The notes beneath the pieces were generated by a model that had not been told where the DNA came from, did not search any database, and saw only the letters and a list, made by a program, of their open reading frames with translations. A stretch of DNA of 64,000 nucleotides from Parahaliea mediterranea (GTDB lineage: Bacteria > Pseudomonadota > Gammaproteobacteria > Pseudomonadales > Halieaceae), in NCBI RefSeq assembly GCF_017255185.1, contig NZ_JAFKCZ010000005.1, forward strand, positions 1 through 64,000, read 5' to 3'. How positions within the stretch are numbered: position 1 is the first letter of the stretch; every line of letters starts with the position of its first letter. Both the position numbers and the translations under genes were made by a program. Positions 1-8,466 of the stretch are shown in pieces.

Positions 1-150
1 AAGCATTATCAAACCCGCGCCGATGCACAGCAGGACATACTGGACTACATTGCGATGTTCTATAACAGCCAACGGCTGCATTCGTACCTGGGTTACACCA
101 GTCCCAGCCAGTACGAAGCGGCTATGCTAGAAATGAAGAAAGCCGCTTAA
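1..150 (+). CDS. IS3-family transposase (OrfB), C-terminal part only
   Basis: The window opens inside this gene; 49 codons and the stop remain. The peptide carries the end of an rve/DDE integrase core: 'YNSQRLHSYLGYTSPSQYE' is the characteristic C-terminal stretch of IS3-family OrfB transposases, next to the catalytic glutamate helix. It would cut and join IS ends through a circular intermediate. The left part of the element lies outside the window, so whether the IS is complete cannot be judged. The right terminal repeat follows directly. Confidence 0.88.
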   Translation, partial: KHYQTRADAQQDILDYIAMFYNSQRLHSYLGYTSPSQYEAAMLEMKKAA

Positions 151-181
151 CTGGGTTGTCACAAATCAGTTGACCACTCCA
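151..181 (+). mobile_element. right terminal inverted repeat of the IS3-family element
   Basis: Between the transposase stop and the next reading frame lies a short sequence ending in TTGACCACTCCA. Read from the outside it begins TGGAGTGGTCAA, like the tips of many IS3-family elements. The left tip is outside the window, so neither the inverted match nor a target-site duplication can be confirmed. Confidence 0.6.
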
Positions 182-294
182 TGATTAGTTGGAGCGGTTT
201 GTTGCTAGGGTTCTTCATTTTATTACTGCCGCTCATATGGTTATATCAGGTTGTATATTTCGTCTACGTCAATTTTGGTGTCAAAAGGATTTAA
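181..294 (+). pseudogene. 37-codon membrane-protein remnant cut by the IS
   Basis: A short frame runs from an ATG at the IS boundary to TAA at 292-294. It encodes one strongly hydrophobic segment (about residues 6-30, rich in Leu, Phe, Ile, Val) and a short basic tail ending KRI. No ribosome binding site is visible, because the sequence before the ATG is the IS end. The most economical reading is that the IS cut off the 5' part of a small cassette gene. The stop codon overlaps the first core of the attC-like site, as is usual in integron cassettes. It could instead be a functional 37-residue membrane peptide. Confidence 0.4.
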
Positions 295-348
295 CGAACG
301 CATCAAAGACGACGGTGTGTAAGGCTGCAGTTTAACGCGGTGTTGGGC
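289..348 (+). other. attC-like integron recombination site
   Basis: The site starts with ATTTAAC (289-295, matching RYYYAAC) and ends with GTTGGGC (342-348, matching GTTRRRY), 60 bp overall. The inner arms (CATCAAA and TTTAACG) are imperfectly complementary, with unequal spacers beside the cores (5 against 4 nt), as in folded attC sites. The stop codon of the upstream frame overlaps the first core, and the next gene starts 25 bp after the second. No integrase gene is in view. Confidence 0.5.
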
Positions 349-372
349 GTGCCGGTGTGTCGGGAGATTTAA

Positions 373-810
373 ATGAGCCATATTGCTTCCCGTGAAGATA
401 AACATTTCCAAAGGGCAGTGGAGTCATGCGAGTTTCCGGTATCGGACTTTGACCATCGGGCTCATCTGCGTTTAGCCTATATTTATCTTGTGGATCAGGA
501 TATTGAAGGGGCTGTCCAGCGTATGCGGGAAACACTGCTTCGTTTACTGCAACACGTCGGTGTCGACCCTTCCGATAAATTCCATGAAACACTAACCAAG
601 GCGTGGGTGCTGGCTGTATACCATTTCATGAACCTCACGGAAACATCCGAATCTGCCGATGAGTTTATTGATGCGAATCCTGTGATGTTGGATTCAAAAA
701 TCATGTTGACCCACTACTCGGCCGAAGTGCTTTTCTCCGATGAGGCCCGACGTGCATTTGTAGAGCCGAATCTTGAGAAGATACCAAGACATGGCAATGA
801 GGATGCTTAG
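373..810 (+). CDS. conserved hypothetical protein, cassette-like
   Basis: A 145-residue soluble acidic protein, predicted mostly helical, with no signal peptide or membrane segment. The N-terminal 'FDHRAHLRLAYIYL' is a striking stretch that I associate with a small widespread family of unknown function, but I cannot name a Pfam entry. It starts 25 bp after an attC-like site and is followed by a second, degraded one, so it is probably an integron-cassette passenger. Base composition is clearly less GC-rich than the core genes to the right, which supports transfer. The function is unknown. Confidence 0.7.
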   Translation: MSHIASREDKHFQRAVESCEFPVSDFDHRAHLRLAYIYLVDQDIEGAVQRMRETLLRLLQHVGVDPSDKFHETLTKAWVLAVYHFMNLTETSESADEFIDANPVMLDSKIMLTHYSAEVLFSDEARRAFVEPNLEKIPRHGNEDA

Positions 811-880
811 CAAAGCAAACAATTGCGCGCCTATGGCGCCGGACACGCTAGCGCCCGCTGAATTCGCACCGCTTTGATTG
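811..880 (+). other. degraded attC-like site (weak)
   Basis: Directly after the 145-residue gene, a 70-bp stretch has the outline of an attC site: AAC then AATTG at its left, a GC-rich imperfect hairpin (GGCGCC, GGACACGCTA, GCGCCC) in the middle, then CCGCTGAATTC and CTTTGAT where the second core would lie. Both cores deviate from consensus, so this is either a decayed site or chance. Confidence 0.3.
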
Positions 881-1324
881 ATGCCAATCAACCCCGACCA
901 GCTTTGTGCGATGGGAGAAAGGCCTTTGCATCGCATGCCTGAAGGGCAGGCTACTTTGCGCCTTATGATTGATAGCAGTTTTGATGACGACGTGGTTATT
1001 CGGGTCGAGCATGATATAGCCGAAACACGATTGGTCAGTACGGTCAGGGAAAAGTCAAGTCTTGGCCACGAAGCGCGCGAACTGGTGACGACCTCAACTA
1101 TAATTTCGGATAAGAAATGGCGCGCGATTGAAGTGCTGTATGAAGATACGCCGTTTTGAGAGCTGGAATCCGCAGATCCACAATGGGCGGGAATGGATGG
1201 TTCCACCTGGGTGTTTGAGATTGCTACTGCTGACCGATATCACGTTGTAAGTCGCTGGGAAGGATTTCGATCTCCTTTAGTGGCAAAGTTCATGGTGTCG
1301 CTTTCAGGCATTAGTATTCAATAA
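881..1324 (+). pseudogene. hypothetical cassette gene broken by an in-frame TGA
   Basis: The frame from the ATG at 881 (or TTG at 878) meets TGA at 1157-1159, then continues open for 54 more codons to TAA at 1322-1324. The part after the stop (GMDGSTWVFE, then YHVVSRWEGF, then a hydrophobic tail) still looks like a coherent protein. The combination 'W.L ... LDG..W..E......YHVVDRW' is one I recognise from a family of small uncharacterised bacterial proteins. In that family a tryptophan follows the phenylalanine just before the stop, so TGG to TGA is the likely mutation. The function is unknown. Confidence 0.6.
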
Positions 1325-1477
1325 GAAGCACGGCGGCAACACCGAAGCTGTTTTCAGCTGTTTGTTTACCGCGCTCCTGAAGTTCGGTTCTCACTGAGAA
1401 TCCAGGTCAATCGAAACCAAACAAGATATATAATCATCATTTTTCGGTGGACAACTGTCATTATTCAGGGAGGGGAA
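1325..1477. other. intergenic stretch with no recognised feature
   Basis: This 153-bp moderately AT-rich gap precedes the DUF2071 gene. No convincing attC site, promoter pair or terminator was found, apart from a purine-rich ribosome binding site (GGGAGGGG) at its end. Confidence 0.4.
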
Positions 1478-2278
1478 TTGCAGGCACATCTGAAATTTAA
1501 GCAGTTTTTGCACCCCAGGCCGCGGCCGAGCGGTATAGACGTTATTTGCAAACTGCAGCATTTTGCAATTATTACCTATGCAGTTGATCCATCCCGCTTT
1601 GCGAAAATATTGCCCGATCGTTTCAAGCTCGATCTCGTCGACATTGGTGGCGAGCTCAAGGGCTTGATATCGGTTGTTCCATTCATTGATGTAGACTTTA
1701 CTTCAGCTGTTTTCCCCTTTCCAAAGTTTCGGATGGGCCAGACAAATTATCGAATCTATATTGTTGATCGTCGGACGGGAGAGCGCTGTGTATGGTTTCT
1801 CGGCACTACTTTGGACTCATGGACCGTGGCGATTCCGCGTTACTTGTGGAATCTGCCTTGGTATTCCGGCGATGTTCGTTTCAATTGCGTAGTTGATACG
1901 CAATCAGGGCGGTACGAGTTATATCACATGACCACGGAGGCTGATTGGGCGCCAGCAGAGGTTCGACTTAACCAGCCCGAAGGTCAGTCGCTCGCATTGG
2001 ACGGGTTCCCTGATATCGAAACCGGGTTGGTCTATCTCACGCACCCGCTTGCCGGCTTTTATCATCGTCGGGATGGAAAGTTGGGCACCTACCGGGTGTG
2101 GCACGAACGGCTGCAGGTGGCCCCGGCCCAACTTGAATCGGCGCGATTTGATTTGCTGGAGCGAAAAGGTCTGGTCACATTGGAAGAGCAGCAGTCTCCA
2201 CATAGTGTTTTGTTGGATCCACTGAATGAGTTTACGATCTATCTACCGCCGAAAGTCCTTCAGGCTGAAGACCAGTAA
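1478..2278 (+). CDS. DUF2071-family (acetoacetate-decarboxylase-like) protein
   Basis: A 266-residue protein that fits the DUF2071/YqjF family, relatives of the acetoacetate decarboxylase fold: an N-terminal 'PDRFKLDL' region, a central beta-rich part (FRMGQTNYRIYI, RCVWFLGTTLDS) and a C-terminal 'THPLAGFY' segment. Enzymatic activity of the family is not established. TTG is used as the start: it sits 2 nt after a strong purine tract (GGGAGGGG), and the next in-frame ATG is far inside the protein. It stands alone in the low-GC island and may be a cassette or island passenger. Confidence 0.7.
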   Translation: MQAHLKFKQFLHPRPRPSGIDVICKLQHFAIITYAVDPSRFAKILPDRFKLDLVDIGGELKGLISVVPFIDVDFTSAVFPFPKFRMGQTNYRIYIVDRRTGERCVWFLGTTLDSWTVAIPRYLWNLPWYSGDVRFNCVVDTQSGRYELYHMTTEADWAPAEVRLNQPEGQSLALDGFPDIETGLVYLTHPLAGFYHRRDGKLGTYRVWHERLQVAPAQLESARFDLLERKGLVTLEEQQSPHSVLLDPLNEFTIYLPPKVLQAEDQ

Positions 2279-2361
2279 TTGTCGCCTGGTCGCCTCGCGG
2301 GAATCAGCTGACGTCACAATTCGGTGATGGGCAGTCAATTGGGTTACCAGTGGGTACCTTC

Positions 2362-3099
2362 ATGAGCGTCAACTACGACACACTGGCAGCAGACTACGTA
2401 AGCTACCGCGTCCCCGACCCTCGTATTGAAGCAGCCATCCGGAGACATATCTCTCCAGGCGACAGTATCCTCAACGTTGGCGCCGGCCAGGGCGCGTACG
2501 AGCCCGATGGCTTTAACGTGGTCGCCTTAGAGCCATCGCGTGAGATGATCGCCAGGCGCTCATCGAAGAAGGCGCCCACAATTCAGGGTATGGCGGAACG
2601 CCTGCCGTTTAAAGACGATAGTTTTGATACTGCACTGGGGGTGCTGACCCTCCACCACTGGCAGGACATTCAACAGGGCCTGAGTGAGCTGAAGCGCGTC
2701 ACTCGCGGCAAGATCATCCTGCTGACCTGGAATGGCGACTATGGGGAGTTCTGGTTGCCTGACTATCTTCCAGAGATCGCGGTCATCGATGTCGGTCTGT
2801 TCCCCTCAATCGGTGCGCTTTCGGAGCTGCTCGGGGGCGCGGTGTCGGTGGAGACCATCGCTATTCCGCACGACTGCACGGATGGCTTTATGTGCGCCTA
2901 CTGGCGCCGGCCTGAAATGTATCTGGATGCATCGGCAAGGCAGGCGATGTCGATGTTCTCGATGCTGGGTAGTGTCGAAGAAGGCCTTATTCAGTTGAGC
3001 GATGATTTGGAGGCGGGGTATTGGCATAAAAAGTACCAATCACTACTGGGCAAAGATCAATTGGATTGTGGATACAGATTGGTGGTTTGCAATAAGTGA
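2362..3099 (+). CDS. class I SAM-dependent methyltransferase
   Basis: A 245-residue protein with a Rossmann-type methyltransferase core. Motif I is 'ILNVGAGQGAY' at residues 36-46, the acidic end of strand 2 is 'VVALEPSREM', motif IV/post-I is 'FDTALGVLTLHHW' near residues 88-100, followed by a strand with 'GKIILLTWN'. This is the Methyltransf_11 pattern. The substrate cannot be deduced. A GTG at 2350 would add four residues; the ATG at 2362 leads straight into the conserved 'YDTLAADY' start common in this family. It is isolated, with no operon partner. Confidence 0.8.
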   Translation: MSVNYDTLAADYVSYRVPDPRIEAAIRRHISPGDSILNVGAGQGAYEPDGFNVVALEPSREMIARRSSKKAPTIQGMAERLPFKDDSFDTALGVLTLHHWQDIQQGLSELKRVTRGKIILLTWNGDYGEFWLPDYLPEIAVIDVGLFPSIGALSELLGGAVSVETIAIPHDCTDGFMCAYWRRPEMYLDASARQAMSMFSMLGSVEEGLIQLSDDLEAGYWHKKYQSLLGKDQLDCGYRLVVCNK

Positions 3100-3157
3100 T
3101 TGGGCGTCACTTGCGCGCATCTAACGTAACACCGTAATTTTCTGCGGAATTTGAAAG

Positions 3158-3472
3158 TTATGTATCTGCTCGAGAGCGCCAATAACCTGGCCGGCGCGCA
3201 TGGTGGGCTAAGGCAATCACGACAATCGAGTCTTGCGAACTCATAGTCACCAATGAAAATGGAAACTTGTGCAGAATGAGCTTTTTGGCTCCAAGCTGTG
3301 CTGCCTGTCCGTGCTTCGGGGTCAGCGGTGGGTTGGGCTCTGACAGTAGGGCCTGGGCGTGATCAAGTGCATCGATAAATCGGCTGCCCAAACCCTTCAG
3401 TTCACTTTCATACCATGCGGCGGCTTCCTCAAGTTTCAGCGCTGCCTCACGGTGTATTTTTACCGAAGGCAT
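3158..3472 (-). CDS. RelE/ParE-type toxin
   Basis: A 104-residue small basic protein with the RelE/ParE layout: an N-terminal amphipathic helix region (EAALKLEEAAAWYES), a middle 'GLGSRFIDALDHA', and a C-terminal beta region 'HKFPFSLV' and 'IVVIALAHHARRPGYW'. The final 'A.aHhrR.PgYW' is typical of ParE-like toxins, which act on gyrase; RelE members cleave mRNA on ribosomes. The start overlaps the antitoxin stop in a TGATG junction, so the two are translationally coupled, antitoxin first. It completes a classic toxin-antitoxin module within the island. Confidence 0.85.
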   Translation of the reverse strand: MPSVKIHREAALKLEEAAAWYESELKGLGSRFIDALDHAQALLSEPNPPLTPKHGQAAQLGAKKLILHKFPFSLVTMSSQDSIVVIALAHHARRPGYWRSRADT

Positions 3473-3711
3473 CAGCCGCGCTGTATTCGTGCGCGCGCTC
3501 GTGCCAGCACTTCACCGGCTTCCATCAGGGTTGCTGCGCCACTGTTTATCTCATTGATTCTACGACATATTTCAGTGTCCCAGGCGGCGGCCGCGTCAGC
3601 ATCCGCCGGGCCGTCCAAGCTGGCTACCAGGTCGCTGGCCAGCTGTGCGCGTTCTGCGTCTGCCAGTTCTAACGCTGCGCTCCGTATGCTTTCAAGTTCG
3701 GCGCTGTTCAT
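3472..3711 (-). CDS. addiction-module antitoxin (Unstab_antitox type)
   Basis: A 79-residue acidic protein placed directly upstream of the ParE-like toxin. It has the pattern of the 'putative addiction module component' family: an N-terminal helix with 'ALELADAERAQLASDLVASLDG', then 'W..EI..RI.EI.SG', then 'EVLARARARI'. It should neutralise the toxin by binding and is expected to be proteolytically unstable. The ATG at 3711 was chosen because an AGGTGGAG ribosome binding site sits 6 nt upstream; a longer in-frame extension to 3786 lacks family features. Confidence 0.83.
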   Translation of the reverse strand: MNSAELESIRSAALELADAERAQLASDLVASLDGPADADAAAAWDTEICRRINEINSGAATLMEAGEVLARARARIQRG

Positions 3712-3836
3712 GGCTGCTCCACCTAGTGCCATTACTTGGTAATTGTTGCACCGCTTAGGTTTCTTTCCAAGCGGCCGTTTCATCATCCGTGGTCGCTTTG
3801 GTCGCTGCGCCCAACCATTGCCGCTTTAGGAATCAA

Positions 3837-3856
3837 CCGCGCCCAGGCGGGCGCGG
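3837..3856 (-). terminator. hairpin downstream of the truncated VWA copy
   Basis: A perfect 8-bp stem (CCGCGCCC / GGGCGCGG) with the 4-nt loop AGGC lies just past the stop of the truncated VWA fragment on the minus strand. The intact VWA gene has an equivalent hairpin at 5662-5681. No T-tract follows, so terminator strength is uncertain. Confidence 0.5.
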
Positions 3857-3871
3857 TAACAATGCAAGACC

Positions 3872-4132
3872 CAATTCACATTCCCGCCGCAATCTCCGCC
3901 TTGCGAATCAACTGCACCAGCTCAGACCGGTAACCATAGGGATCATCCCCGCGATTCTCCTGCGCCAGTTCCAGCGCCTTGTCATAGTCCCAGTCGCCGC
4001 TGTACTTGCCGCCGCGCAGCAGTTCGGCGAAGCCGGCCACGGCGGCGGCGAAGCGGGTTTCGCGCAGGGCGGTGGCGACGCCGGTGCCGTTTCGGGACAG
4101 GGCCTGAATCAGGGTGTCGTGGTAGTTGCCCT
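3872..4132 (-). pseudogene. truncated, internally deleted copy of the VWA gene
   Basis: Positions 3872-4077 match 5696-5901 of the intact VWA gene with about six mismatches in 206 bp. Positions 4075-4132 then match 6316-6373 (five mismatches in 58 bp). The copy therefore joins the last 68 or so codons of the gene to a segment about 140 codons further upstream, with about 414 bp missing. The join lies at a shared GGCG. The frame stays open (104 codons from an ATG at 4190), but the MIDAS motif, membrane anchor and start are gone. Sequence beyond 4133 has no match, so this is an eroded duplicate rather than a working gene. Confidence 0.85.
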
Positions 4133-4298
4133 GGCTGATGGATAAATTTTTCAGGTCCAGAGCGTTGTAGGATATTCTATTGCAATGCAAGACGGTCCAG
4201 AAAACATGGAAGGGCGCGATTTTCTGGGCAATATATGATCGCCTAACGGAGGCAGGTGTTTTTCTGTAGCCTCGTTATTCTTATATAGTAGGTCACGA

Positions 4299-5030
4299 AT
4301 GCTCGATCAACATACCATTATATATGTAATGCGTCATATCGATATTGGCGGACATATTGATATCCCATACAAAAAGGTGGGAATAACTGGTAGAGGCAAC
4401 GCGACGTTGAGTTCACGTTTGCAACAAATTAGCACTACCAAGTCACCTATTCAGGCCCAGTGTATTGCTGCCTGGACGCATGATGACGCCAAGGCCATTG
4501 AAACAGCTTTTCATTTGCTGCTTGATGATAGCCGAGTTGAGGGTGAGTGGTTCTACGATAAGGATGATACTTTGGTGGAGCGATTGCAGCCAATGATGGA
4601 GCTGCTCGGCGCGCAGGAAATTGAAATTGAAAGCGCGGACGACTCATATAGTAAGAATATTCTGAAAAGGGAGGATGATTCAAGGTCTGCTTCAAATCAA
4701 AAGTTGTTGGGGGAAATTTCAGAACTATTGAAAACGCCGTTGAGAACCAGTATTCGAAAAACAGGGCCAACTTTTTTCAGTGACAAAACAAGTCTTACGT
4801 ATTACATAGGCTACAGAAAATCTGGTAATCACAGTCTTTCAATTGGGCGTAGCAAGGATGTTTACGAGTCATTAAGTACTTTCCTCGAAACACAGGGCTA
4901 TGATACTGAGCAACATGCCAGGGGGCATGCTTTGGTCCACGGTCTTTCTGTAGATATGTTGGCCGATCTTATTAATATTACTGAGTCAAGCTTTAACACA
5001 AGTTTTCAATTAGACGGGCAAATTACATGA
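4299..5030 (+). CDS. GIY-YIG (T5orf172-like) domain protein with unknown C-terminal half
   Basis: A 243-residue protein. Residues 7-105 fit a GIY-YIG fold of the T5orf172/MUG113 type: 'IIYVM' (7-11) and 'YKKVGITGR' (24-32) replace the two name-giving strands, followed by an arginine in 'SSRLQQIS' and a glutamate in 'AIETAFHLLL', the usual catalytic positions, and a 'GEWFY' segment. Such domains are single-metal DNA endonucleases. Residues 110-243 resemble nothing I know; they include 'TYYIGYRKSGNHSLSIGRSKDV', in pieces a possible second degenerate GIY-YIG-like strand pair. Codon use is AT-rich, unlike the core genes. It lies between the truncated and intact VWA copies. Confidence 0.65.
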   Translation: MLDQHTIIYVMRHIDIGGHIDIPYKKVGITGRGNATLSSRLQQISTTKSPIQAQCIAAWTHDDAKAIETAFHLLLDDSRVEGEWFYDKDDTLVERLQPMMELLGAQEIEIESADDSYSKNILKREDDSRSASNQKLLGEISELLKTPLRTSIRKTGPTFFSDKTSLTYYIGYRKSGNHSLSIGRSKDVYESLSTFLETQGYDTEQHARGHALVHGLSVDMLADLINITESSFNTSFQLDGQIT

Positions 5031-5053
5031 TTCGATGCTTCTGTCAGTCAGTT

Positions 5054-5323
5054 CTAGCGCCGACTTTCTTTCACGTCCTCCGATAGCCAGACTTTGATCA
5101 AGGACTGATACGGCATATCGCGTTTATTGGCTTCAATCTTAATGCTCTCTAATAAACTCTCAGGCAGTCTTAGTGAAATCGTTTTGGTTGAGGGTTTGAG
5201 GTTTGCCATCAAGACAGGCTGGGCCCGCTTCCAGTCAACATAGTCACTAGAGTCATGACTTTCCCAAAAGGCGCGTTCCTCCGCCTCGGTCTTAAACTTC
5301 GGAATCTTCTTGGCTTTGCTCAT
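5054..5323 (-). CDS. brnA: BrnA-type antitoxin
   Basis: An 89-residue antitoxin with the two-part BrnA/CopG_antitoxin layout: an N-terminal toxin-binding part containing 'F.TEAEERAFWE.HDS.DYVDW' and a C-terminal ribbon-helix-helix 'KTISLRLPESLLESIKIEANKRDMPYQSLIKVWL' (split here into its parts: strand TISLRLP, helix A, turn KRDMPY, helix B). It binds the toxin and should repress its own operon. The ATG at 5323 is preferred; the upstream in-frame extension is toxin-coding sequence. It overlaps the toxin gene by 32 bp, with the toxin first, as in other brnTA operons. Confidence 0.85.
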   Translation of the reverse strand: MSKAKKIPKFKTEAEERAFWESHDSSDYVDWKRAQPVLMANLKPSTKTISLRLPESLLESIKIEANKRDMPYQSLIKVWLSEDVKESRR

Positions 5324-5609
5324 AAACCGTTCTCTCCTTTCGGTGCATGTCGCGCGCCGAAATGACACGAATCAAGGTGTCGGCCGAGCGTAGGGTAAAG
5401 GTGATATGTAAACACCGGGCATTGTCAGTTTTACCCAGAGCGTGGAAGCGTGCTTCTTGCTGGCTATGCTTAGCATCGTCCAAAACCAGCAGCGGCTGGT
5501 TAAAAAACACCTGTTCGGCCTCGAACTGGGTAACGCCATGCTTTTCAACGCTCTTTCGCGCGTTGCCCGTATCCCATTCGAATCCGGCTATTTGCGCCCA
5601 GTCGATCAT
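5292..5609 (-). CDS. brnT: BrnT-family ribonuclease toxin
   Basis: A 105-residue BrnT/DUF497 protein: 'FEWDTGNARKSVEKHGVTQFEAEQVF', then 'RFHALGKTDNARCLHITFTLR', then 'IRVISARDMHRKER' (family landmarks in order; the last one is the diagnostic 'iRiISaR.a...Er'). BrnT is a RelE-fold ribonuclease that stops translation under stress. It is the first gene of the pair, directly under a palindromic promoter region at 5614-5639. No ribosome binding site is visible before ATG at 5609. Confidence 0.88.
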   Translation of the reverse strand: MIDWAQIAGFEWDTGNARKSVEKHGVTQFEAEQVFFNQPLLVLDDAKHSQQEARFHALGKTDNARCLHITFTLRSADTLIRVISARDMHRKERTVYEQSQEDSEV

Positions 5610-5613
5610 TTTT

Positions 5614-5639
5614 GTATATTACCAGCATATACGTGGTAA
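5614..5639 (-). promoter_or_regulatory. candidate brnTA operator and promoter
   Basis: Two interleaved perfect inverted repeats lie just upstream of brnT: GTATAT (5614-5619) with ATATAC (5627-5632), and TTACCA (5619-5624) with TGGTAA (5634-5639). On the minus strand TAATAT (5621-5616) is a good -10 element, only about 6 nt before the ATG, which implies a very short or absent leader. BrnA-type antitoxins are known to repress their own operon, so this is the likely binding site. Confidence 0.5.
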
Positions 5640-5661
5640 GCAAGGCCTTTGAACGAATAAG

Positions 5662-5681
5662 CCGCGCCCTAATGGACGCGG
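5662..5681 (-). terminator. hairpin after the VWA gene
   Basis: CCGCG (5662-5666) pairs with CGCGG (5677-5681), with an inner CC/GG pair and a TAAT loop, just downstream of the VWA stop on the minus strand. It corresponds to the hairpin at 3837-3856 behind the truncated copy. There is no T-tract. Confidence 0.45.
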
Positions 5682-5699
5682 AATTGACGGCACGGCAAT

Positions 5700-7730
5700 T
5701 CACATCCCCGCGGCAATCTCCGCCTTGCGAATCAACTGCACCAGCTCAGACCGGTAACCATAGGGATCATCGCCGCGATTATCCTGCGCCAGTTCCAGCG
5801 CCTTGTTATAGTCCCAGTCGCCGCTGTACTTGCCGCCACGCAGCAGTTCGGCGAAGCCGGCCACGGCGGCGGCGAAGCGGGTTTCGCGCAGGGCGGTGGC
5901 GTCGGTGGTGTCGGCGATGGTGATCGGCTGGCTGATCAGTTGTGACTTATCCTGCTCCGGCAGTTTGTAGCGCAGCTTGAGGAAGCCGTATTCGCCGGCC
6001 TTGGTGTCGGTGGCCTCGTCCGCGCCGCGCTGGTAGCGGGACTCGGAGAAGGCGCCGCTGTTGCTGCCCGCGGGGGTGATTTCGTAGAGGGCGGTGACGC
6101 TGTGTCCGGCGCCGATGTCGCCGGCGTCGACGGCGTCGTTGTTGAAGTCTTCCTCGGCGAGGATGCGGGTTTCATAGCCCAGCAGGCGGTACTCGCTGAC
6201 AGTGGCAGGGTTGAACTCCACCTGGATCTTCACGTCCTTGGCGATGGGGAAGAGGCTGGAGGTGGCCTCGTCCACCAGTACCTTTTGCGCCTCGCCCAGA
6301 GTGTCGATGTAGGCGGCGACGCCGTTGCCGTTTTGGGCCAGGGCCTGCATCAGAGTGTCGTGGTAGTTGCCCTCGCCGAAACCGAGCACCGATAGGAACA
6401 CGCCGGACTCGCGCTTGCGCTCGACAAAGCCCCGAAGCTCTTCGCTGTTCTGGATGCCCACGTTGAAGTCGCCGTCGGTGGCGAGCAGGATGCGGTTGAC
6501 GCCGTCCTCGATGAAGTTGGCCTCCGCCAGCTGGTAGGCAAGTTGAATGCCGGCGCCACCAGCGGTGGAGCCGCCCGCCTGCAGCTGGCCGAGGGCGGCG
6601 AGGATTTTACGTTTTTCCTTGACCGGGGTGGGTTCCAGCACGGTGCCCGCGGCGCCGGCATAGACGACGATGGAAACGGTGTCCTCGGGTTGCAGGCGTG
6701 ACAGTAGCAGGCTCATGGACTGTTTGACCAAGGGCAACTTGTCCGGGCTGTTCATGGAGCCGGAGACATCGAGCAGGAACACCAGGTTGGCGCGCGGTTG
6801 CGGGCCGGACAGCTCATAGCCCTGGATGCCGATGCGCACCAGCTTGTTACCGGCCTTCCAGGGCGCGTCGATCACCGCGATGTCGGTGTTGAAGGGCGTG
6901 CCGCGATCCGCCGGCAGGGGATAGGCGTAGGGGAAGTAGTTGACCATTTCCTCTACGCGCACCGCCGCCTTCTGCGGCAGCACGCCCTGGTTCAGCTGAC
7001 GGCGCACGAAGCTGTAGGCGGCGGTGTCCACATCGATGGAGAAGGTGGAGACCGGCGCCTCGCTTACCCGCTTGATGGGGTTGGCGTCGGTAGTTTCGAA
7101 GCGGTCGCGGCCCTGGTCCTGGTAGTAGGGAGAGGTGGTGTCATCAGCTACCATTTGTTGGCGCGATTCGCTTGCTACGATCTCCTCCAATTGCGGGGCG
7201 CCAGGTACGTTTGCGGAAAAGTCCGCGTTGGCCTGCACACTCGGGGCTAACTTGCGCACCTGCATTTCAACCTGTTGTGTTGGCGGCGGCACGGTAAGTT
7301 TAACGGCGGTGGACTTTCGCTCCTCCCCACGAGACGCTTCGACCTGAACCACTTCGGGGATTGGCGAGGCCTCGCGTGCCGCGGCCCGAGGCCGTTCAAG
7401 CTCATCCGCTCCATCAAACCCACTAAACTGCGGCATCTGCATGGCAATCAACACCCCCACCACCAGCACGGCGGCGCTCGCCATGCCGCTGTACAGCCAG
7501 CGCTGGAAGGGGGATTCGGCGGTAAATACGTTCATGATTCTTCTCCCGATTGACGGTGTGTCGGGAGTGGGACGCCGCGGTTGGGCGAATCCTTGGGTGT
7601 CCGCCGGATTTTTTTCCGCCTGGGTCTCGTCGAAGCTGCGCAGGGCCGCGGCCACGGCGCGCTGCCTGGCGTCTTCGCGGGGCTTGTCGTCGAGTGTGTC
7701 GAACAGCTGTTTCAGGTCGTCGTCATTCAT
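5700..7730 (-). CDS. membrane-anchored VWA-domain protein (YfbK-like)
   Basis: A 676-residue protein. Residues 1-75 are a cytoplasmic acidic/helical segment, 79-97 a single membrane anchor, then a proline-rich linker, a vWA_N-like region (about 200-310) and a von Willebrand A domain. Its metal site DVSGS is at 321-325, with the later 'STAGGAGI' threonine and 'ATDGDFNVG' aspartate, so MIDAS is complete. The C-terminal part matches the DUF3520 region of YfbK-like proteins. The start overlaps the sigma-factor stop (ATGA), so the two are co-translated. The N-terminal cytoplasmic segment plus one membrane anchor is the architecture of an anti-sigma factor, here fused to a periplasmic VWA sensor; this role is inferred. 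Confidence 0.85.
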   Translation of the reverse strand: MNDDDLKQLFDTLDDKPREDARQRAVAAALRSFDETQAEKNPADTQGFAQPRRPTPDTPSIGRRIMNVFTAESPFQRWLYSGMASAAVLVVGVLIAMQMPQFSGFDGADELERPRAAAREASPIPEVVQVEASRGEERKSTAVKLTVPPPTQQVEMQVRKLAPSVQANADFSANVPGAPQLEEIVASESRQQMVADDTTSPYYQDQGRDRFETTDANPIKRVSEAPVSTFSIDVDTAAYSFVRRQLNQGVLPQKAAVRVEEMVNYFPYAYPLPADRGTPFNTDIAVIDAPWKAGNKLVRIGIQGYELSGPQPRANLVFLLDVSGSMNSPDKLPLVKQSMSLLLSRLQPEDTVSIVVYAGAAGTVLEPTPVKEKRKILAALGQLQAGGSTAGGAGIQLAYQLAEANFIEDGVNRILLATDGDFNVGIQNSEELRGFVERKRESGVFLSVLGFGEGNYHDTLMQALAQNGNGVAAYIDTLGEAQKVLVDEATSSLFPIAKDVKIQVEFNPATVSEYRLLGYETRILAEEDFNNDAVDAGDIGAGHSVTALYEITPAGSNSGAFSESRYQRGADEATDTKAGEYGFLKLRYKLPEQDKSQLISQPITIADTTDATALRETRFAAAVAGFAELLRGGKYSGDWDYNKALELAQDNRGDDPYGYRSELVQLIRKAEIAAGM

Positions 7731-8260: not shown

Positions 8261-8466
8261 GGCCGGCCCATGCCGTATTCACCCATGGGACGCGCGGGCG
8301 GCGCGAATCCTTGGGCGAGGCGCGTTTTTTTTGGCCGCCTTGCTTTCCACCGGGAGGCGGCACAAAACGGGAGGTGGACTTTCATGGGCGCGGCGCTTGT
8401 TGTCGTTGCCGCCACTATAGCAGGGTTGTTGCGTGGAGATATGGCGCGGGTATGCCGGGAGGGAAG

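Follow-up and report, generated by a model that had tools for sequence, protein, structure and literature searches.

A short region at the start of a Parahaliea mediterranea contig is very probably a cassette-array remnant, now decayed, of a sedentary chromosomal integron. It comprises two or three worn cassettes, and an insertion sequence truncates it on its left side. The region covers positions 151–1324 of the window, the 64,000-nucleotide stretch that was analyzed, which is the start of contig C5. Two attC remnants bracket an intact gene, two of the genes have relatives that are borne on cassettes, and the composition is foreign. These observations bear out the sedentary or decayed chromosomal integron that an earlier note had proposed here, as do the attC arrays that five of the other contigs carry, together with a broken integrase on contig C18. 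The remnant is a genuine but ordinary case of a well-known gene-collecting element. Its features are listed in Table 1.

The GC content of positions 182–1324 is 48.2% versus 67.2% for positions 5700–64000, and none of the 572 windows of this size beyond 5700 has a GC content as low. The earlier description of two small, AT-richer hypothetical genes is thus correct in composition. The first of them, gene B, is intact. The second, gene C, is a broken pseudogene.

Table 1. Features at the left end of contig C5, with positions in the window.
Feature	Position	Strand	Description
IS3-family element, 3' end	1–181	+	End of the orfB transposase (1–150), followed by the right terminal repeat to 181
Cassette A, remaining 3' part of its gene	181–294	+	Translates into 37 hydrophobic residues; interrupted by the IS; stop codon falls within R'' of site 1
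Site 1, likely degraded attC	289–348	+	R'' 289–295, R' 342–348; in-register match at R'
Cassette B gene	373–810	+	Intact ORF, 145 aa, uncharacterized protein; stop codon in R'' of site 2
Site 2, attC reduced to its left half	805–858	+	R'' 805–811, L'' and GGAC motif; right half lost
Cassette C pseudogene	899–1324	+	First ~92 codons of the homologue missing; in-frame TGA at 1157–1159

Search Model and attC Library

A covariance model, R1, was built from attC sites in arrays of related genomes. A pattern and pairing rule of our own picked 109 sites, of which 83 were left after locus L049, sites over 100 nt, weakly paired sites, and most of locus L050 were dropped. Seven of these were held out (two of L013 and five of L043), and the other 76 formed the training set. 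The rule favors TAACAA/TAACCAG and CGTT and demands pairing; R1 is thus biased to the common type of the family, and its covariation counts arise partly by construction. All held-out sites were recovered (5/5 of L043 and 2/2 of L013), and the attC of L095 was missed. A library of 130 entries was used for blastn: 108 picked sites, 21 R1 sites of P. mediterranea itself (two on C18 listed twice), and one from C28.

Folding was compared with four control attC. Their R boxes are paired, in the best structure for three and in the centroid structure for the fourth, and in folding energy they surpass shuffled sequences by only 1.0 to 2.1 standard deviations.

The attC Remnants

The earlier note had named site 1 as its best evidence. 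Site 1 rests on its register and its context, and the clearer evidence is site 2. This is the degraded site that had been placed between the two genes, and it proved to be real and stronger than claimed. Positions 808–858 match an attC of a relative (L039:1622–1695) at 82% identity over 51 nt with an E value of 3e-8, the best blastn match that any part of the window has in the attC library. The second match of this left half is to an attC on contig C27 of the same genome (E 6e-5). In register, 36 of 43 bases agree, and the other 733 relaxed cores reach at most 25. The R'' box of site 2 has one change from the consensus and contains the stop codon of gene B (TAG, 808–810); no R' can be recognized. 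The best R1 score between 150 and 1480 lies at 821–874 and amounts to only 7.6 bits, within the range of chance, probably because the right half of the site is missing.

Both core motifs of site 1 were found where the earlier note had placed them. R'' (ATTTAAC) and R' (GTTGGGC) fit RYYYAAC ... GTTRRRY. The upstream frame had been described as cut and as ending within the first core, and the frame at 181–294 does so; it has no Pfam match. The imperfectly complementary inner arms that had also been described can be paired by hand at about 7 of 9 positions, and folding does not support them. The strand from 283 to 352 folds no better than its shuffles (167 of 200 as good), and all 200 shuffles of 289–348 alone fold as well. 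A covariance search had been suggested as a check, with a miss at 289–348, or a lack of further sites or of an integrase nearby, to be read against an integron. R1 found nothing at 289–348, either in the whole window with filters off or in 150–1480; a further attC site is present at 805–858.

There is a small, though by no means negligible, probability that the two cores of site 1 are paired by chance. In that case only site 2 and cassette B (and C) would derive from an integron, and 181–294 would not be a gene. The R1 miss and the lack of a hairpin are consistent with this, and site 1 is at background level both in a position-weight scan and in an unanchored alignment to the attC library, where its score is reached by 1296 of 3442 segments. 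Strict core pairs in register also occur at three places in the window, and a scan for them is uninformative by itself. Against chance stands the comparison anchored at R'. The 20 bases 5' of the R' of site 1 match the 3' ends of attC of the same genome (C26, C27, C29, and C18) at 15 of 20 positions in register, and the best of the other GTTRRRY sites (68 elsewhere in the window plus 135 from a 161-kb background) reaches 13, so that site 1 ranks first of 204. As a positive control, an array in genome G014 was compared in the same way, and 2 of its 21 GTTRRRY sites reached 13; the test is therefore specific but not sensitive. The context argues in the same direction. The R'' of site 1 holds the stop codon of the upstream frame, its R' ends 24 nt before the start of gene B, and site 2 lies at the opposite end of that gene. 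Site 1 is therefore likely to be a degraded attC of a type common in the P. mediterranea genome.

The R boxes pair on the bottom strand in neither site 1 nor site 2. Since neither site folds into the hairpin required by the integrase, the cassettes are probably fixed and gene B would be a stranded accessory gene. Judged from these folds, the sites are probably no longer substrates of an integrase. It is very improbable that the sites still work and that an integrase from elsewhere could move cassette B. A functional IntI can mobilize integrase-less cassette arrays in trans (PMC12444791); in the present case, the R boxes that are paired in all four control attC are unpaired in both sites, and site 2 is without its right half.

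Cassette Genes

Gene B has the geometry of a single-gene cassette, with its start just after R' and its stop in R'', and the cassettes point in one direction. No Pfam or NCBIfam family matches its protein over the cut-off; the single Pfam match (E 0.067) is below it. Its relatives are 28–69% identical to it. An alignment used as the query identified relatives at 26 named loci, and a scan of contigs with the single sequence identified nothing. Two of the 26 loci are clear cassette relatives, one in a Marinagarivorans MAG and one in Ca. Endobugula sertula. In Ca. Endobugula sertula, an attC that R1 missed ends 19 nt 5' of the relative, and its L-arm is paired at 13 of 13 positions. Three attC (29.9, 28.6, and 20.7 bits) lie near the relative in the Marinagarivorans MAG, and there is further attC similarity directly 3' of it. 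These scans found no clear flanking attC at the other 24 loci. At one of the 26, L096, a pair of weak sites scoring 20.3 and 18.4 bits lies some 2.2 kb 5' of the relative. Parahaliea maris and Mangrovimicrobium sediminis (Halieaceae, Cellvibrionales) possess relatives (69% and 47% identity) without adjacent attC. Among plasmids, only one weak match, from Streptomyces, was found.

At two loci (L054 and L087), the same interval holds an integron in genome G014 and a small operon with a gene B relative in genome G037, of the same genus. The interval is bounded by the pntB gene (PNTB) on one side and by what we take to be an ABC-transporter-like gene on the other. It is possibly a hot spot for insertion.

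No Pfam or NCBIfam family was found for gene C. Two of its segments match a 233-aa frame of G014, one of 93 aa at 52% identity and one of 41 aa at 49%; the homology begins at about residue 93, numbered from the frame's first start codon. The G014 homologue sits in an array with five attC (38.6–62.9 bits), which also has a broken intI, an rve-type transposase, and a degraded attC 3' of the homologue. No attC was found 3' of cassette C by R1, by blastn against the attC library, or in the position-weight scan. The junction of gene C with site 2 falls between 858 and 899, where the right half of the second attC would be expected, so one deletion event probably removed that half together with the start of gene C.

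Neighboring Genes

Low GC content is also found at 1478–2278 (50.7%) and 2350–3099 (55.9%); the foreign stretch thus extends past the cassette remnant. This acquired part, 1478–3099, carries a DUF2071 gene (1478–2275) and a methyltransferase gene, with 51 and 56% GC. No attC was seen in it. At E 1e-20, none of 116 other genomes has the DUF2071 gene. A search of positions 1–6000 against Rfam gave no match at E ≤ 1.

A toxin–antitoxin-like pair, with a weak ParE match and an addiction-module antitoxin, is encoded on the minus strand at 3158–3786, 1.8 kb after the cassette remnant. The best site of the window in the position-weight scan is at 3667–3744 on the minus strand, with a score of 22.2. 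Scores of at least 20 occur at four places in 179 kb of background, one of them in L060, a locus with a true attC.

The 3' end of a YfbK-like gene (5700–7730, minus strand) is present in duplicate. The two copies, at 3872–4089 and 5696–5913, are 218 bp long, 95% identical, and about 1.8 kb apart. They flank a T5orf172/MUG113 gene and a frame resembling a BrnA antitoxin, whose match is below the cut-off. This looks like an insertion or a duplication at the 3' end of the YfbK-like gene.

Insertion Sequence and Possible Contig Joins

Members of the IS3 family have orfA and orfB with a DDE integrase core, a length of about 1.2–1.3 kb, terminal repeats, and a 3-bp target duplication. The element at the left end of C5 belongs to this family, and the contig begins within it. 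An IS3 element had been noted beside the array, and it is confirmed by an rve_2 match (E 9.3e-11; Pfam, window), by its terminal repeats, and by the same 3' end on C6, C19, and C23. The ends of the element read TGGAGTGG...CCACTCCA. A full internal copy with frames of 97 and 292 aa is present in C4. The 5' end of the element is found on four contig ends (C12, C14, C18, and C28), and the 3' end also on four (C5, C6, C19, and C23). Duplications of 3 bp pair C12 with C6 (AAA) and C18 with C23 (ACT), which gives two inferred copies. Provided that the assembly is right, these pairings leave C28 or C14 to adjoin C5.

There is about an even chance that C28 (reversed), the IS, and C5 are one decayed array, which would refine the cassette-remnant reading rather than oppose it. 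Apart from the pairings, C28 carries attC remnants in matching orientation, and the first 12 kb of C14 are without attC by blastn. One remnant on C28 (397–492) matches an attC on C4 along 93 nt (399–491) with 78% identity, and another (7028–7112) matches attC on C26 at 7032–7115; weaker sites are at 7668–7706 and 8261–8341. On the other side, there is no clean target duplication for C5 with either C28 or C14; the full copy in C4 shows none either. For a gene fragment on C28, a search of 116 other genomes also found no homologue at E ≤ 0.01.

Integrons Elsewhere in the Genome

The P. mediterranea assembly has 5.03 Mb in 45 contigs. At least 20 attC were found with R1 at E ≤ 2.5e-4, on C4, C18, C26, C27, and C29; this list may be short, since scoring covered 150 of the 4017 first-look candidates. 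Unlike the two sites on C5, these attC score 33.5–62.9 bits. The attC on C4 (L060, 12639–12734) is solitary, lies about 2.7 kb from the full IS3-family copy, and is the site that has 78% identity over 93 nt to positions 399–491 of C28. On C26 (L063, 688–2297), five attC are spaced by exactly 380 bases, a tandemly repeated cassette.

No integrase had been visible to the earlier note, and a search with TIGR02249 found none on C5, where the contig edge is at position 1. As the contig ends inside the IS, the absence of intI may partly reflect the assembly. Seven pieces in the genome match TIGR02249, none of them over the cut-off; at the same threshold, all 14 control genomes have matches, also never over the cut-off. 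The strong match, split into three pieces, comes from C18. When the C18 intI is aligned with intact relatives, it shows a frameshift and a gap that spans 32 residues, and Ser replaces the Tyr of the (Y)THV motif, a position that is presumably catalytic. The frameshift could be a sequencing error; this is less likely for the gap and the Ser. Among 117 genomes, a set that includes P. mediterranea, 55 have an integrase match at E ≤ 1e-30 and 45 are over the cut-off. An integrase on C28 was rejected as an IntI. It is without the middle part of the model, is a plain phage-type integrase by Pfam, and adjoins an IS91-type Y2 transposase.

The arrays on C4, C18, C26, C27, C28, and C29 and the start of C5 might stem from a single large integron that was shattered after losing its integrase, its pieces being interspersed with insertion sequences and repeated attC. 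This is put forward tentatively and is rather doubtful at present.

A history can be proposed for the remnant on C5. An ancestral integron integrase would have assembled the array by attC recombination. The sole recognizable integron integrase of the genome is now broken, which would leave the attC sites unselected and drifting. One deletion would have removed the right half of the second attC with the start of cassette C, and an insertion of the IS3-family element would have cut cassette A.

Relation to Known Integrons

A complete integron has an intact intI beside its array, and none lies beside this one. Arrays without an integrase (CALIN) are defined by at least two model-called attC and no intI, and have been proposed to be degraded integrons, their numbers being inflated by draft assemblies (PMC9024848). 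The remnant on C5 resembles them as described there, as its attC are without a neighboring integrase. It differs in that both sites are uncalled by the covariance model R1 and that the contig ends inside an IS; judged with R1, there are only remnants of attC.

In Xanthomonas, intI has been inactivated by frameshifts, stops, or deletions, the arrays are stable, and transposases are found around some of them (PMC12444791). P. mediterranea is similar to these sedentary integrons in its chromosomal arrays, its inactivated intI, and the transposases near some arrays. Unlike the Xanthomonas cases, this is a Halieaceae genome with arrays over several contigs, and the attC on C5 are degraded beyond detection by R1.

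Such attC remnants, missed by a covariance model, can be found by eye from their core motifs. If the arrays of P. mediterranea are indeed pieces of one shattered integron, a single genome would hold a graded series of attC from intact to half-deleted, in which one could trace how attC decay once intI is lost. Members of the protein family of gene B occur as cassette genes more than once. The region at the start of C5 adds one more decayed chromosomal integron, in the marine family Halieaceae.
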